Origin: Bacteroidota bacterium
GTDB taxonomy: Bacteria; Bacteroidota; Bacteroidia; Bacteroidales; GCA-2711565
NCBI GenBank assembly: GCA_018816945.1
Contig: JAHIVC010000009.1
Location: forward strand, 1-64,000
DNA: 64,000 nt
Direction: 5' to 3'
In this document: piece after piece, positions 6,557 through 32,180 of the stretch
Numbering within the stretch: position 1 is the first letter of the stretch
Layout of the letters: each line of letters begins with the position of its first letter
Program-made: the position numbers and the translations under genes
The notes under the pieces: generated by a model
Seen by the model: the letters and a program-made list of their open reading frames with translations, nothing else
Databases searched by the model: none
Told to the model about the DNA's origin: nothing

Positions 6557-7069
6557 ATGAAACTCCAGAATAGATTAAAAAAGATTTGGATATTGGGTAT
6601 ATTGGGATTATGCATTATTACATCCTGCAAAAAAACGAGCGAATTCTCTTATTTTAAGGATATCAAAATGGAGATTTTATTATCTGATGACGAAGGATTT
6701 GATTTGTTTGATCCTGAATCATACACTTATTATTATCCAGACAGTATCAAAATATTTTATATTATCAACGATTTGGAGGTTGAAATGAACAACCCGCTTT
6801 TGACTCCCCCTCGTAACTTTTATGTTAATTATGCAAACGGAAGATACCGATTGCAATTATTCCCAAATCATGATGATTCAATAGAATTTCCGGTTACCCT
6901 AATAAAACTTAACAAAACTATTACTGACACCGTTCGCTGCGGTTATGAGAGAAATCCCGGTTCAATTACTTGCACTAAAGTTTGGTATAATGGTGATATT
7001 GTATGGCAAAAGAATGCACCTGATCAGGCACGTTCGTTTGAGATTATAAGATATAAAAAGAAGAAGTAA
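6557..7069 (+). CDS. Small lipoprotein of unknown function
   Basis: I do not recognise this 170-residue protein. From the ATG at 6557 it has a lipoprotein signal peptide (KKIWILGILGLCIITSC, lipid-anchored Cys at about residue 24). A 14-codon upstream extension is excluded because the promoter overlaps it. The mature part is acidic at first (EILLSDDEGFDLFDPES), then has alternating hydrophobic residues suggesting a small beta-rich domain, and ends in a basic tail RYKKKK. It is probably anchored in a cell-envelope membrane. No partner gene adjoins it. Confidence 0.65.
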   Translation: MKLQNRLKKIWILGILGLCIITSCKKTSEFSYFKDIKMEILLSDDEGFDLFDPESYTYYYPDSIKIFYIINDLEVEMNNPLLTPPRNFYVNYANGRYRLQLFPNHDDSIEFPVTLIKLNKTITDTVRCGYERNPGSITCTKVWYNGDIVWQKNAPDQARSFEIIRYKKKK

Positions 7070-7240
7070 TCTCGACATTAAATTTTGAGGCGGTTTTTTT
7101 AATCCCATTCTATTTGGGATATCCTTTCCCGAATTCGACACAAACATCCTTTTAAACTTTTAATCATCAGATATGTAGTTTATTAAATGTTTTGATTTGT
7201 TCGTTTTTGGGTGACCCACTGTCGAAGGCAGGAAAAAAAA

Positions 7241-7288
7241 GGTCGGAATTTCTTCCGACCATGACAAGGGCGAAAGCCCCCTTTTTTT
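7241..7288. terminator. Double hairpin terminator (bidirectional)
   Basis: Hairpin GGTCGGA / TCCGACC (7241-7260) is preceded by an A-run, so on the minus strand it ends the efflux operon. A second hairpin GGGC-GAAA-GCCC (7268-7279), followed by a T-run, ends the plus-strand lipoprotein gene. GAAA is a stable tetraloop. Confidence 0.85.
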
Positions 7289-7291
7289 GTT

Positions 7292-10200
7292 TTAAATGAT
7301 ACCTTTTATTTTAGCTTTGACCATATAGGCAGTGTGATACATAGTCGGAACTATTATCAGGGTCAAGAATGTGGAAAAGGTTAAGCCAAATATTACTGTC
7401 CATGAAAGCGGGCCCCAAAAAGTGACCATATCACCACCAATTGAAAACTGTGGGTCGAAATTCGTTAAAAGTGTATTAAAATTAATGTTCATTCCAATAG
7501 CCATTGGGATCAGTCCTAAAATTGTTGTAATAGCGGTTAACAAAACAGGTCGTAATCTGGTCTTCCCACCTTCTACAACGCAATCAATTGATTGTTCGGG
7601 ATTCAACATAGCATCTTCTTCCATTCCAAGTTCCTCGCGTTTTCTACGTTTAAGTAAATCAATGTAATCTACCAAAACAATAGCATTGTTTACAACAACT
7701 CCTGCAAGAGAAACAATACCGATACCAGTCATAATAATTACAATGTCCATATTAAAGGTTGCAATCCCTCCAAATACCCCAATCGTACTAAATAAAACGC
7801 TTGTTAAAATGATCAATGGTTTTGCTACTGAATTAAATTGTGTCACCAAAATGATCAGAATTAAAGATATAGCAATAAGCAAGGCACGAGCTAAAAAGCT
7901 GGTTGATTCCTGCTGATCTTCCTGCTCGCCGGTAAATGAGTATTGGTATCCAACAGGTAATTCAATGCTTTTAAGCCGTTCTTTAATTTGGGTATTGATT
8001 TCGTTGGCATTATATCCTTCGATTACGTTAGAGTAAAGTGTAACAACCCTGTCGGTATTTTTGCGTTTTACAGCACCATAGGTTGTACTGTAATCCACGG
8101 AAACCAAAGCTGAAATTGGAATTTGAATTATTTTACCACTATTGTTCCTGAAAGTCATTTTTTGGTTTAGTAAGTCAGGCACATTATAACGATATTTATC
8201 CATCAATCTTAATTGGATGGGATATTCATCTTCACCAACTTTATAGTCTGAAATTTCTTTCCCGAATAATGCAGTCCTTATCGTCATCGCTATTTGGGCA
8301 GTTGACAATTCAAAACGTCTGGCTTTATCGCGATCGATATGAACAATCATCTCCGGCTTTCCAATATCCAAATCAATTTTAAAACCCTCGATGCCATCAA
8401 TCTTTGCTTCCTCAATAAAGGTTTCAAGCGTATCAGTTAATGCAAGTATTTTAGAAAATTCTTTGCCACTGATCTCGATATTAATTGGCCTTCCGGTTGG
8501 TGGCCCCATGCTGTTTTTCTCAACAGATACTAAAACGCCAGGGTACTTTCCAATAATTGCATCACTAACCTCTTTCATTAATTCGGAAGTATTAAGTCCA
8601 TCGCGGTATTCATAATCCACAAACGTAACAGTTATGCGGCCCTTATGGGGGGTTTCCCCTACTGCCAAGAAATCATTCTCGCTATTTGAGCCGGAACCAA
8701 CATTTGTAAGCACCGATTCAACTACTTTACTGTAAGGTTTTAAAACCTCAATCACTTTATCTTCGAGAGTCGACATAAACTCGTTTGAAACAGTGATGTC
8801 TGTACCAATAGGCAACTCGGCCAATACATTAATGTATTTAGGCTCACCATCGGGGAAGAACAATATTTTGGGTTGTCTGAGGCCAAGAAGGATTAATGTC
8901 ACAAATAAAAGAACAAAAGTCCCTACAATAGAATAGTATGGATTTCTTTTTCTCAACGCGAATTGCAAGACTTTTAAATAAAAGTTTTCAAGTCGAGGTA
9001 AGCCAACATCTTGAAACCATTGTCCTTTTGATTTAAAATAGTAAACATTGAACAAGGTAACCAAAGAGACAATCACAATTAAATTTGCGATTACATAACT
9101 CCCCATTGCATAAAAGATGGCAGCTATTGCCATAAGTATCAAAACACGAATATTGACTTTTCTTTTATTGCTTGGTTTTAATTGTTGAATAGGATTGAAT
9201 GTAGCAGCAAAAACAGGGATAATAACCAACGCTACGAATAAAGACGAAGTTAGTACTACAACTAAAGTTATGGGTAGGTATTTCATGAATTCACCAATGA
9301 TCGAGTCCCAAAAAATTAAAGGGAAAAAAGCGGCCAACGTAGTCAATGTCGATGAAATAATTGGCATGGCAATCTCTCCAACAGCATCTTTGGCTGATCT
9401 GAACATACCATATCCTTTATTGTTAAAGCGAACAATATTTTCGACAACAACAATAGCATTGTCAACAAGCATTCCCAATGCAAGGATTAAAGCGAATAGA
9501 ACCATCATATTAATACGATAGCCCATTAGCGATAAGATAACAAAAGAGAGGAACATCGACATTGGTATTGCAAAACCTACAAAAAGCGCATTACGGGTCC
9601 CTAAAAAGAAAAATAAAACAATGATCACAAATAACATCCCCAGGATAATACTGTTCTCTAGGTTGCTTAGTTGCATCCGAACCATCGCGGAGGTATCGTT
9701 CGTGATCGAAATGTTCAGGTTTGCAGGTAAAGAGTGTTCATTTTTAGCTTTATCCAGAATTTCAAACACCTGATCTGTTGTAGCCAGAATGTTTTCACCA
9801 CTTTTTTTAACTATCTGAAGCGATACCACCGGTTGTTTATTCAAGCGTGCAAAACTATTGGGCTCTGCAAACCCATCAATAACTTCGGCAATATCCTTTA
9901 GGTAAACAATATTTTGATCTTCGTTTTTGATGATGATGTTTTCAATTTCCTTCATGCTGGTGAACTCTCCCATCGTTCTGATAGATCTGCGAGTTCCTCC
10001 CAATTTAATTTCTCCTCCTGAAATTGAAAGATTCTCAGCAGCGATCGCATTTTCTATATCATCGAAATTAAGTTGATTGGATGCCAGTTTATGCATGTCA
10101 ACGTTGATCTTGATTTCGCGCTCATTTATCCCGGTAATATCAACCCGGGCAACTTCATTTATGGTTTCAATCTCCTCTTCAAGAAATTCAGCATATTTTT

Positions 10201-28721: not shown

Positions 28722-28729
28722 TACATTTG
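28722..28729 (+). promoter_or_regulatory. Candidate -7 element of gatED
   Basis: TACATTTG fits TAnnTTTG, about 41 bp before the gatE ATG. A native-looking promoter here would mean the pair is expressed by host RNA polymerase. No TTTG at the -33 distance. Confidence 0.45.
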
Positions 28730-28770: not shown

Positions 28771-30774
28771 ATGAAGCAGACTAACAGCCAGGAGAAACAG
28801 CTCAATAATCAATTCGACCCGATAGAGAACTATCAAAAAAGTTACGAAAGGGTTGGTTATGTAAAACGAAAAGACGCCAATCAGGAAACCTACGATCGCA
28901 TTGGTTTTATGTCGGGCCTAGAGGTTCATCAGCAACTATTGACAAAAAAGAAATTATTTTGTCATTGTCCGGCAGGAGTTTATCATAAAAGTGCTGATTT
29001 TGATGCTGAAGTTATCAGGCACATGCGCCCGACTTTAAGCGAATTAGGTGAATATGATGGTACCGCTTTGATGGAATTTAAAACCAGAAAAGAGATTGTT
29101 TATCGACTAAAACATGAAACAACTTGTACTTATGAGGTGGATGACACGCCACCGTTTCCTGTAAATAGAGAGGCTTTGAATATAGGGATTGAGATATCAT
29201 TGCTTTCAAAACTAAACATTGTTGGTGAAGTTCATATTACCCGCAAGCAATATTTGGACGGAAGTATCCCGACCGGATTTCAACGAACCTGTATTCTTGG
29301 GGTTGAAGGTGAACTTCAATTGAAAAATAAAAAAATCCGACTTATTCAGCTTAGCCTGGAGGAAGATTCATGTCGCGAAATATCTGACATTGGCCACACC
29401 CGAATTTATAAAACCGACCGATTAGGAATGCCCTTGATTGAGACGGTTACTTATCCCGACATGGTTAACCCTGCTGAGGTTAAAGAAGTTTGTGATTATA
29501 TCCGTTTTTTGAATAGGAGTACCGGAAAAGTAAGAACCGGAATTGGAGCGGCCAGGCAGGATGTCAATGTTAGTTGTAAAGGAGGAACAAGGGTTGAGTT
29601 AAAAGGTGTAGCCCACACAAAATGGATTCCCGAATTGACACATAACGAATGTTTCAGACAATGGGCGTTACTGCAAATTAAAGATGAATTGTTAAGTCGT
29701 ATTGCACATCCTGAAAAATGGAAACCAACTCACGAGTTTTTGAAATTTCATTCTTTCAAATTTACACATAAGCCAATAAAAGAGGCAAAAACCTTACATC
29801 ATAAAATTGTAGCCGTTAACCTGCCAAATTTTAAAGGGATTTTATCACATTTTACGCAACCGGGTAAAATGTTTGCAGATGAAATAGTTGAACGATTAAA
29901 AGTTGTAGCTTGTTTGGAACATCCAAATAATACCCATTCTGAATCTTTCGAAGGCCATATTTCAAATAAAGACTATGGGCAAATCCGAATCCTTTTAAAT
30001 TCAGGTGAAAATGATGCTCAATTAATATTCTGGGGTCCTGAGGCTGATATTAAAACCGCACTTGAAGTGATTGAGGAAAGGTGCAAAATGGCTTTTCAAG
30101 GTGTTCCGAATGAAACGCGAAAGGGATTAGAAGGCGGGATTTCTATTTTTGAAAGAGTACTTCCGGGAGCTGATCGTATGTATCCCGATACAGATTCTGC
30201 ACCTATTCCTTTAAAAAATGAAGACATTGAAGAATTAGGCAAAAATCCACCATCCGATATCATTGATCGCTATCATCAGTTAAAAAAATGGGAAGTTCCT
30301 GAAGATAATTATACGTATATCTTCAAAAAGAATTTATTCTTATTGATGAAGTCCATCATCGAAGATTTAAAAGTTAATCCACGATTTCTTGGATCATTTT
30401 TAGGTCAAAAGCTTAAATATGTTGAAGGTCATGTGCGACCTGCCGATGCATTCAACTACCCCAAAATATATGACCTATTTAAGTTTTTAAAACAAAATGA
30501 TTTAAAAGTTGAATTAGCTAAGCGAATGATTGCAATTGTTTATGAACATCCAAAAATGGATTTTGAATCGGTACTTGAAATCATCAATTATAAAAAGGTA
30601 ACTGCCGAGAGCATCTATTCTCACATCTTGTTTTTAAAAGAAAAATTTGCTGAAATAGGGATGAATCACACTCCTGAAAATGAAGTAAACTGGATCATGG
30701 GCGAATTAAAAAATGTTGCCATAGGGAATATAGAAATGACGGACCTGGCAATTCGAATCAGAGAAGCTAAATAA
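28771..30774 (+). CDS. gatE: Glutamyl-tRNA(Gln) amidotransferase subunit E (archaeal-type GatE)
   Basis: 667 residues. Features of GatE: GLEVHQQL (49-56) and KLFCHCP (61-67) at the start of the GatB-like kinase domain; ETVTYPDM, GAARQDVNVSC and GGTRVELKGV; then a GAD insert of the AspRS/GatE type, ending RVLPGADRMYPDTDSAPI (about 462-480), which bacterial GatB lacks; and a C-terminal YqeY-like helical tail that binds tRNA. GatE phosphorylates Glu on mis-charged Glu-tRNA(Gln), then amidates it with ammonia supplied by GatD. The GatDE enzyme was described as restricted to Archaea, so this gene is unusual in a Bacteroidota genome. gatD follows 20 bp downstream. Confidence 0.93.
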   Translation: MKQTNSQEKQLNNQFDPIENYQKSYERVGYVKRKDANQETYDRIGFMSGLEVHQQLLTKKKLFCHCPAGVYHKSADFDAEVIRHMRPTLSELGEYDGTALMEFKTRKEIVYRLKHETTCTYEVDDTPPFPVNREALNIGIEISLLSKLNIVGEVHITRKQYLDGSIPTGFQRTCILGVEGELQLKNKKIRLIQLSLEEDSCREISDIGHTRIYKTDRLGMPLIETVTYPDMVNPAEVKEVCDYIRFLNRSTGKVRTGIGAARQDVNVSCKGGTRVELKGVAHTKWIPELTHNECFRQWALLQIKDELLSRIAHPEKWKPTHEFLKFHSFKFTHKPIKEAKTLHHKIVAVNLPNFKGILSHFTQPGKMFADEIVERLKVVACLEHPNNTHSESFEGHISNKDYGQIRILLNSGENDAQLIFWGPEADIKTALEVIEERCKMAFQGVPNETRKGLEGGISIFERVLPGADRMYPDTDSAPIPLKNEDIEELGKNPPSDIIDRYHQLKKWEVPEDNYTYIFKKNLFLLMKSIIEDLKVNPRFLGSFLGQKLKYVEGHVRPADAFNYPKIYDLFKFLKQNDLKVELAKRMIAIVYEHPKMDFESVLEIINYKKVTAESIYSHILFLKEKFAEIGMNHTPENEVNWIMGELKNVAIGNIEMTDLAIRIREAK

Positions 30775-30794
30775 CAGCATTAAAAAATTATTGA

Positions 30795-32180
30795 ATGAGC
30801 GAAGATTTTTTTCAAGGATATAAAGGAGCTTCTTTAGAAATATTGAAGAAATACAATTGCAGGGTTTGGGGACAAGCAACTGTCGAAACCACCCGTGGAA
30901 CTTTTAATGGAACTGTTTTGCCAAGATCGGAAAATGATGACGACCAACATATTGTCATGAAAATCATAACCGGTTACAATATTGGAATTGATATCGTAAC
31001 CATCACATCGATGAAGGAAACCGGGTATAAAAAAGCCAATTACAAAATTCCTGAAAAGGAATTCCCTTATACAAAAGGATTGCCTAAAGTAAAATTATTC
31101 GGGACAGGCGGAACCATTGCTTCACGATTGGATTATCGGACAGGTGCCGTTATTCCGGCATTTTCACCGGGCGAACTTTATGGAGCCGTTCCTGAATTAG
31201 CGGATATTTGTAATCTGGAAACAGAAAAAATATTTGCCGTATTCAGTGAAAATATGGGGCCAAAACAATACATGGCGCTTGCAACTGCTATCGGTAAAGA
31301 AATTGAAAATGGAGTGGACGGAATTGTAATTGGACATGGTACCGACACCCTTCATCATACCGGTGCGGCATTGACATTTATGGTTCAGAACTCACCGGTT
31401 CCGATCGTTTTGGTTGGTTCTCAACGATCTTCTGATCGTCCCAGTTCCGATGCTGCCTTAAATCTAATGCATGCGATGACAGCAGCCGGACATTCTGATA
31501 TCGCTGAAGTCATGGTATGTATGTTTGGTCCTACTTCTGATGATTATGGATTATTGCACAAAGGAACCAGGGTTCGTAAAATGCACTCCTCCTATCGTTC
31601 TACATTTCGCACCATTGGTGATACTCCATTGGCAATGATCAATCGTAAGGGTGCAACAATGATCAAAAAAGAATACAAACATCGTCGCAAGGATAAAAAT
31701 GTGACGATACTACCTTATTTCTCGGATAAAGTAACTATGCTGTATTACTATCCCGGTATGAAAGCTGACACATTGGATTCATTGGTGGAAGCAGGTTATA
31801 AAGGCGTTATTATTGTTGGAACGGGATTGGGTCACGTAAATAAAGAACTATATCCCGCGATTGAAAGAGCACACGCAAAAGGCGTTCATATGTTTATGAC
31901 CCTTCAAACTATTTGGGGGTTTGTTCATATGTTTGTTTATGATACAGGAAGAGACATGATGGCCAAAGGAATTATTCCTGCAGGGAATATGTTACCGGAG
32001 GTTGCATGGGTAAAGTTGAGCTGGATTCTTGGTCAAACAGAAGATCCTGCCGAGGTAAAACGCATGATGCTAACTCCAATCAACGATGAAATTACCGAAC
32101 GTGAGCCTTATAATGGATATTTGGTTTATCAGGGTGGCGTTTCGGAGGTCGAAGATTTTATAAAGAAAGTGCACAAGTAG
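30795..32180 (+). CDS. gatD: Glutamyl-tRNA(Gln) amidotransferase subunit D (archaeal-type GatD)
   Basis: 461 residues. An N-terminal GatD-specific beta domain (about 1-90) precedes an asparaginase-like domain with the catalytic Thr in GTGGTIAS (T107), the second Thr and Asp in HGTDT (T183, D184), the family motif GSQRSSDRPSSDAALN, and a Lys in RKMHSSYRSTF. It has the GatD N-terminal extension that true asparaginases lack. The asparaginase-like active site releases ammonia from Gln or Asn for GatE. It follows gatE by 20 bp in one transcription unit; the two subunits make sense only together. Confidence 0.93.
   Translation: MSEDFFQGYKGASLEILKKYNCRVWGQATVETTRGTFNGTVLPRSENDDDQHIVMKIITGYNIGIDIVTITSMKETGYKKANYKIPEKEFPYTKGLPKVKLFGTGGTIASRLDYRTGAVIPAFSPGELYGAVPELADICNLETEKIFAVFSENMGPKQYMALATAIGKEIENGVDGIVIGHGTDTLHHTGAALTFMVQNSPVPIVLVGSQRSSDRPSSDAALNLMHAMTAAGHSDIAEVMVCMFGPTSDDYGLLHKGTRVRKMHSSYRSTFRTIGDTPLAMINRKGATMIKKEYKHRRKDKNVTILPYFSDKVTMLYYYPGMKADTLDSLVEAGYKGVIIVGTGLGHVNKELYPAIERAHAKGVHMFMTLQTIWGFVHMFVYDTGRDMMAKGIIPAGNMLPEVAWVKLSWILGQTEDPAEVKRMMLTPINDEITEREPYNGYLVYQGGVSEVEDFIKKVHK

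Follow-up and report, generated by a model that had tools for sequence, protein, structure and literature searches.

A 64,000-nucleotide stretch of a Bacteroidales genome (Bacteroidota bacterium, assembly GCA_018816945.1, contig JAHIVC010000009.1, positions 1 to 64,000; hereafter the window) carries adjacent gatE and gatD genes for the two subunits of GatDE. This tRNA-dependent amidotransferase completes the loading of tRNA-Gln, and passages of PMC9499178, PMC8762117 and PMC8007984 describe it as confined to archaea. We find that the GatDE encoded here is part of a bacterial branch that is old and widespread and has apparently escaped description. We call this branch B-type, and GatDE is kept in this genome alongside direct glutaminylation of tRNA-Gln. 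Judging from its sequence, the pair is probably a working GatDE-type amidotransferase that serves as a repair system or second route for Glu-tRNA-Gln.

The identification of the pair as GatDE had been made from the letters alone in a first-pass annotation of this stretch, and it is borne out by curated models, by the active-site residues and by the predicted fold. GatE lies over the cut-off of TIGR00134 (399.5 bits, cut-off 319.55), just under that of NF003107 (453.2 bits, cut-off 456, about 3 bits short) and far under that of the GatB model TIGR00133 (104.8 bits, cut-off 314.8). GatD exceeds the cut-offs of NF003217 (500.7 bits, cut-off 310) and TIGR02153 (495.2 bits, cut-off 324); it is also over that of the TIGR00519 subfamily (370.4 bits, cut-off 260.5), with the GatD equivalogs scoring higher. 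The NCBIfam names for the pair are GatE and GatD, and the families that had been weighed in their place, GatB and plain asparaginase, fit less well. Five further B-type proteins exceeded both curated GatE cut-offs; such genes are therefore probably annotated as GatE in databases, and the gap lies in the literature. The asparaginase-type site predicted for GatD (T107, T183, D184) aligns with archaeal GatD, as does K262. The four residues correspond to archaeal positions 101, 177, 178 and 254, which we take to be the catalytic residues, and are invariant in all 49 aligned GatDs of Bacteroidota.

Pfam finds GatB_N, Asparaginase N and C and GatD_N in the pair, and no GAD or YqeY match at 1e-3. A GAD insert and a YqeY-like tail had nevertheless been read in GatE, and the fold search bears both out, though Pfam shows neither. 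The closest Protein Data Bank (PDB) entries for both subunits are the archaeal GatDEs 2d6f (Methanothermobacter) and 1zq1 (Pyrococcus abyssi). An AlphaFold model of GatE, built on a 32-row alignment (predicted local distance difference score, pLDDT, 84.7; predicted template modelling score, pTM, 0.80), is predicted to resemble 2d6f most (Z 33.1, root-mean-square deviation (rmsd) 4.3 over 506 residues), then 1zq1 (Z 29.9, rmsd 3.9, 485 residues), with all GatB chains below both (Z up to 26.9). The modelled tail (residues 498-667) matched GlnRS N-terminal domains at Z 8.0 and 7.2, and residues 608-667 matched YqeY at Z 7.1 over 54 residues; Z below 8, or below about 13 in helical parts, is weak on its own, and the GatE profiles reach into the tail as well.

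Both genes are intact open reading frames on the forward strand, separated by 20 bases, a spacing from which a shared transcript may be inferred. In one set of 57 loci, 54 have gatD next to gatE in the same orientation. Between the window's genome (G000) and a congener (G001), the ratio of nonsynonymous to synonymous substitution rates (dN/dS) was 0.05 for gatE and 0.01-0.02 for gatD (NG86 and YN00). In farther pairs, dS of gatE was saturated in four of four; gatD gave 0.024 and 0.036 at dS >2, with one pair saturated. This illustrates the strong purifying selection on gatDE.

GatE is patchily distributed. When the phylum was sampled evenly, 30 of 395 genomes were over the cut-off, namely G000 and 29 genomes outside its class; the other sampled members of its class, at least five of them from its order, were not. 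A closer sample of the order (60 genomes: G000, five others of its genus and 54 of other families) yielded 27, G000 included, or 28 with a partial gene in G052. All six genomes of the genus in this sample carry GatE, as do members of many families. For a wider scan of species genomes, the GatE of a member of the phylum outside Bacteroidia (G191) served as query, and the best 80 of 568 confirmed relatives, ranked by similarity to it, bear names from more than 10 bacterial phyla. They include Ignavibacteria, Melioribacteraceae, Kapaibacterium, Aminicenantes, Phycisphaerae and other Planctomycetota, Cloacimonadota, Krumholzibacteriota, Fermentibacteria, Aegiribacteria, Calditrichota, Myxococcota, Gemmatimonadetes, Caldisericia, KSB1, Thermoanaerobaculales, Zixiibacteriota, Hatepunaea and Bacteroidales, together with two Thermoplasmatota archaea. 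Nearly all 80 are metagenome bins. One is a strain record, Marinifilum flexuosum DSM 21950, and two further records, both bins, are titled complete genome (CP054675) and chromosome (CP070718). Because records with such titles carry GatE, mis-binning does not explain the distribution. The suggestion of an under-reported bacterial lineage thus stands, in a field whose reviews call GatDE archaeal. Within Thermoplasmatota, GatE was over the cut-off in 102 of 116 genomes; a plasmid search yielded a single haloarchaeal GatE, in a frame of 476 aa, and its other matches were weak and GatB-like.

The phylogeny of GatD and GatE that had been proposed as a check was run. In trees with two archaeal references, 57 GatEs and 49 GatDs of Bacteroidota each stood apart from them (100/100). 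We then rooted a GatE tree of 62 rows with GatB as outgroup, leaving out one long-branched Thermoplasmatota sequence (L333) that was also unplaced in an otherwise agreeing quick tree of 97 rows. Two clades emerged, each supported at 99/97. The classical archaeal clade holds Methanothermobacter, Pyrococcus and 10 Thermoplasmatota rows, and the B-type clade holds all 36 bacterial rows plus nine Thermoplasmatota rows, which sit in three groups at its base. The bacterial rows form one clade at 82/72, or 98/92 without the Caldisericia row. Within it, the window gene falls with the named Bacteroidales GatEs (100/98), to which rows of Cloacimonadota, Calditrichota, Aminicenantes and Zixibacteria are nearest (100/100). 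In G215 (L034), which belongs to a different class of the phylum, GatDE falls inside the Bacteroidales clade, by intra-phylum transfer or contamination. Fixed residues also distinguish the two clades, in a count of 69 B-type and 19 classical rows with L333 in neither: Ile166-Pro167 occurs in 69/69 B-type rows and Asn166 in 19/19 classical rows, Met85, Tyr121, Glu461 and Asp473 are each present in 69/69 B-type rows, and an insert with Cys381 in 68/69. Two draft Thermoplasmatota genomes, G534 (L323/L324) and G525 (L330/L331), hold a classical and a B-type GatE each, as mixed bins or true paralogues.

The first-pass annotation had offered acquisition from an archaeon as its other reading, and the archaea-only description in passages of reviews would favour a recent acquisition by this lineage. 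We give this almost no chance. The separation of GatE and GatD from the archaeal references, the nesting of the window gene in a multi-phylum bacterial clade, its presence throughout the genus and in many families, and its local base composition all oppose it, and a recent, lineage-specific event is excluded. The GC content of both genes is local, as is that at third codon positions (GC3), which is 0.31 and 0.34 for gatE and gatD and 0.29 and 0.37 for two neighbours. The earlier view that the pair is settled is supported. As a direct event, acquisition from an archaeon is not supported by the nearest relatives, which are Bacteroidales and then four other bacterial groups. Homologues common across Bacteroidota in an old bacterial clade had been named as what would exclude recent transfer; the outcome speaks against recent transfer, with the proviso of a patchy distribution. 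An older event has more in its favour. That the whole B-type branch stems from one ancient transfer from Thermoplasmatota-like archaea, followed by spread among bacterial phyla, is quite possible, if short of probable: B-type Thermoplasmatota lie at the base of the clade, and sequence families mix across phyla, as with G215. The reverse direction, or a split before the domains diverged as the GatB root draws it, is also conceivable, and bacterial monophyly reaches only 82/72. A topology that keeps every archaeal GatE on one side was not rejected (approximately unbiased test, p-AU 0.099), with archaeal sampling that comprised Thermoplasmatota, the two PDB sequences and one haloarchaeal sequence.

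Next, we consider how GatDE relates to the other routes to Gln-tRNA-Gln. G000 (4.14 Mb in 108 contigs, completeness 99.5%, contamination 2.95%) encodes a GlnRS (C18:11420-13006, 758 bits) and, on the same contig, a GluRS (L095:1633-3159). No GatB was found in it: matches to the GatB model lay only within gatE and GatCAB controls were positive, in a search that did not extend to gatA or gatC. Across the order sample, GlnRS was over the cut-off in 54 of 60 genomes and GatB in four. Among the 28 GatE-bearing genomes, 25 have GlnRS, three have GatB (G014, G018 and G055) and 23 have GlnRS without GatB. As 25 of the 28, the window's own genome among them, hold GlnRS, and no GatB was found in that genome, GatDE is kept beside direct glutaminylation. 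Of the two roles that had been proposed, replacing the native route does not fit the GlnRS in G000, and supplementing it may. One genome, G044, has glnS (6701-8404), gatE (from 8508) and gatD (from 10505) in tandem on one strand (L097:6701-11887), a suggestive juxtaposition of the direct and the indirect route to Gln-tRNA.

The GatE-bearing genomes of the order without GlnRS over the cut-off are G002 (a fragment only), G014, which has no GlnRS but has GatB, and G039. The last (96% complete; GatE, with neither GlnRS nor GatB over the cut-offs) was considered as a GatDE-only Bacteroidales and set aside as a likely assembly gap, because its congener G504 (68% complete) holds both GatE and GlnRS; a second congener, G505, has GlnRS, and its GatE is not over the cut-off. 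No convincing GatDE-only Bacteroidales was found among the 60 genomes of the order.

Beyond the order, we scored 50 of the best 80 GatE genomes, 48 of them bacterial, for which no completeness values were given. GlnRS was over the cut-off in 40 and GatB in 19 (GlnRS only, 26; both, 14; GatB only, five; neither, five). Marinifilum flexuosum DSM 21950 (L193) has GlnRS over the cut-off and GatB not over it. The five genomes with neither (G479, G480, G483, G497 and the archaeon G494) fit the explanation that some bacteria depend mainly or entirely on GatDE for Gln-tRNA-Gln and that GlnRS is missing or secondary in them, and so does a chromosome-level Phycisphaerales, G472 (CP070718, L137). G472 has GatDE and GatB with GlnRS not over the cut-off, and a 173-aa frame at C1:3598641-3598940 corresponds to the C-terminal part of GlnRS. 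We regard this explanation as improbable. The great majority of GatE-bearing genomes of the order hold GlnRS, the best Bacteroidales candidate, G039, has a congener with both, and G479, G480, G483 and G497 are draft bins, with GlnRS cut short in G497 (419 bits) and a 91-aa piece of GatB in G483. In G466, G470, G484, G486, G488 and G489 GlnRS lies in frames of 686-1070 aa. A stretch of the 843-aa frame in G488, equal in length to its GlnRS frame, matches the GatB tail 309-480 at 118 bits. It may be a GlnRS-YqeY fusion, as is known in Deinococcus.

From what the family does, GatD would release ammonia from glutamine at its Thr/Thr/Asp/Lys site, and GatE would bind Glu-tRNA-Gln, phosphorylate the glutamyl side chain and amidate it to Gln-tRNA-Gln. 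In the cell, GluRS may mischarge tRNA-Gln with Glu, which GatDE would then turn into Gln. Because GlnRS can make Gln-tRNA-Gln directly here, GatDE most likely acts as a repair or second route that would keep Glu out of Gln codons. The Thermoplasmatota genome G494 suggests that the B-type branch may keep activity on Glu-tRNA-Gln: the one candidate route that we found there is a B-type GatE. More broadly, we tentatively propose that GatDE is no archaeal signature: a separate branch in more than 10 bacterial phyla and part of Thermoplasmatota would, beside GlnRS, repair mischarged Glu-tRNA-Gln rather than hydrolyse it.

The main rival to the repair role is that B-type GatDE changed its substrate to Asp-tRNA-Asn, another aminoacyl-tRNA or a non-tRNA carboxylate. 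Such a change would explain its persistence beside GlnRS in 25 of 28 genomes of the order and 40 of 50 wider genomes, and it accords with the residues fixed in B-type GatE (I166-P167, E461, D473), with the conserved Cys-bearing insert (C381) and with the two Thermoplasmatota genomes that hold both types. We consider it unlikely, although it is less so than GatDE as the main route. The catalytic core and the GAD/YqeY layout are those of GatE, G494 has no other route found to Gln-tRNA-Gln, and the double-copy genomes are multi-contig drafts that are possibly mixed.

We also looked for traces of GatDE on its presumed partners. G000 has one tRNA-Gln (anticodon TTG, U1-A72, A73), and a search with this tRNA itself hit a single place. 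No second, archaeal-type tRNA-Gln was found among the 30 read of 39 tRNA matches, from 150 scored of 338 first-look candidates, the nine weakest matches (82-89 bases, as class II tRNAs) being unread. In relatives, second matches are mostly CTG isoacceptors, several of them adjoining glnS. Read by eye from the alignment, the acceptor stem of tRNA-Gln(TTG) has U1-A72 in 20 of 21 GatE-bearing genomes of the order, and nine GatE-free genomes have it as well; tRNA-Gln therefore bears no mark of GatDE at position 1-72. The exception, in G032 (L223:1501-1576), was called as Gln(ttg) but is an odd gene, mismatched at U1-U72 and unusual in its anticodon loop. For GluRS, an Arg at the position of Arg358 of the Thermus thermophilus enzyme is a criterion for tRNA discrimination. 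It is present in 21/21 GluRSs examined from the order, whether or not the genome has GlnRS, and in 34 of 38 rows overall; of the remaining four, three (L248, L262, L263) belong to genomes that hold two GluRS-like genes, and the alignment has a gap at this position in the fourth (L250, from G472). Arg is present regardless of GlnRS, so the residue gives no information on discrimination. The genome search that had been advised thus returned glnS and no gatB, and its question on the type of GluRS met an uninformative position.

Several observations weigh against the reading of the pair as a working GatDE with a repair role. The GluRS of G000 keeps the Arg358 equivalent, which would point to a discriminating enzyme, but GlnRS-less genomes keep it too, so that the residue does not settle the matter. 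Its tRNA-Gln has U1-A72, whereas archaeal GatDE reportedly reads A1-U72 and the D-loop (passages of PMC9499178). No GatE was found in 32 of the 60 genomes of the order, where GatDE thus seems dispensable. The final part of the GatE tail has diverged in the Bacteroidales subclade, and glnS lies beside gatDE in only one of 99 neighbourhoods (some contigs counted twice). In the wider set, gatD turned up at 67 of the 80 named loci, at two of them on the opposite strand, and none was found in the flanks of the other 13, many flanks being truncated. The eleven B-type Thermoplasmatota loci show gatD in two only, on the opposite strand, so that gatE and gatD are often apart there or gatD lies beyond the fetched stretch.

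The features of the locus are collected in Table 1. The neighbours of gatDE in the window are ordinary genes: LptD, an N-acetylmuramoyl-alanine amidase, MlaD and an OstA-like protein, then a ClC channel with CBS domains and an exonuclease-type protein. No neighbour of gatDE recurs across phyla in 99 loci; the commonest neighbour clusters are the window's envelope genes (OstA-like, MlaD, amidase, LptD), in Bacteroidales loci. In G032 and G053, gatE and gatD are separated by a gene for an M28 peptidase that carries a Por sorting tail (L098:8282-9511 and L112:9846-11123). The -7-like box reported upstream of gatE is present as TACATTTG, and it is weak evidence for a promoter: by window frequency 0.18 such boxes are expected in the interval, and no spaced -33 TTTG was found upstream of it.

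Table 1. Features of the gatDE locus, in window coordinates.
Feature	Position	Strand	Basis
TACATTTG, Bacteroidetes -7-like box	28722..28729	+	weak evidence; 0.18 expected by window frequency
gatE, B-type GatE (Glu-tRNA-Gln amidotransferase kinase/transamidase subunit)	28771..30774	+	667 aa; NCBIfam, fold, tree
B-type signature Ile166-Pro167 (DGSIPTGFQRT; classical archaeal GatE DGSN)	29266..29271	+	69/69 B-type rows
GatE GAD-type (AspRS insertion-like) domain, residues 314-444	29710..30102	+	predicted fold match to AspRS insertion domains, Z 8.7-11.2
GatE helical and YqeY-like tail, residues 498-667	30262..30771	+	predicted fold match to GatB tails, GlnRS N-terminal domain, YqeY
gatD, asparaginase-type glutaminase subunit with GatD_N domain	30795..32180	+	461 aa; NCBIfam, Pfam, alignment
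GatD Thr107 codon	31113..31115	+	aligned with M. thermautotrophicus Thr101
GatD Thr183-Asp184 codons	31341..31346	+	aligned with M. thermautotrophicus Thr177-Asp178
GatD Lys262 codon	31578..31580	+	aligned with M. thermautotrophicus Lys254

Our phylogeny uncovered a bacterial branch of GatDE that occurs together with GlnRS and a bacterial tRNA-Gln. The distribution of GatDE has been used in arguments on the last common ancestor and on why archaea lack GlnRS (passages of PMC8762117 and PMC9499178), and this branch contradicts the distribution that underlies them. Among the matches listed in a search of the open-access literature, which left subscription papers and preprints outside, there was no report of a bacterial GatDE, and the GatDE passages of PMC7373986 and PMC9976931 make no mention of it in bacteria. 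The branch raises the question whether GatDE accepts a U1-A72 tRNA-Gln and what its role is beside GlnRS. Marinifilum flexuosum DSM 21950 is a carrier that has been deposited as a strain.

Compared with known systems, the pair is closest to archaeal GatDE (2d6f, 1zq1), with which it shares both subunits, the active-site residues, GatD_N, the GAD domain, the YqeY-like tail, the gene pair and the equivalog models. It differs in forming a separate clade with DGSIP and the C381 insert, in its bacterial host, in the presence of GlnRS and in U1-A72; confinement to archaea, a host without GlnRS and a tRNA-Gln with A1-U72, which mark the archaeal system in reviews, are all lacking here. Bacterial GatCAB performs the same chemistry as GatDE, and its GatB is homologous to GatE. 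Unlike in GatCAB, an asparaginase-type GatD takes the place of GatA, and G000 has no gatB. With type I asparaginases, GatD shares the core fold, the Thr/Thr/Asp/Lys site and a score over the TIGR00519 cut-off; it differs from them in the extra GatD_N domain, the gatE partner and the higher GatD-equivalog score. The retention of an amidotransferase beside direct synthetases has a parallel in Bdellovibrio-like bacteria with GlnRS, AsnRS and GatCAB, described in passages of PMC4206432, a survey of GatCAB alongside GlnRS and AsnRS across 547 bacterial genera. In that case, however, the retained enzyme is GatCAB and the tRNA is tRNA-Asn, whereas here it is GatDE, which is described as specific for tRNA-Gln.

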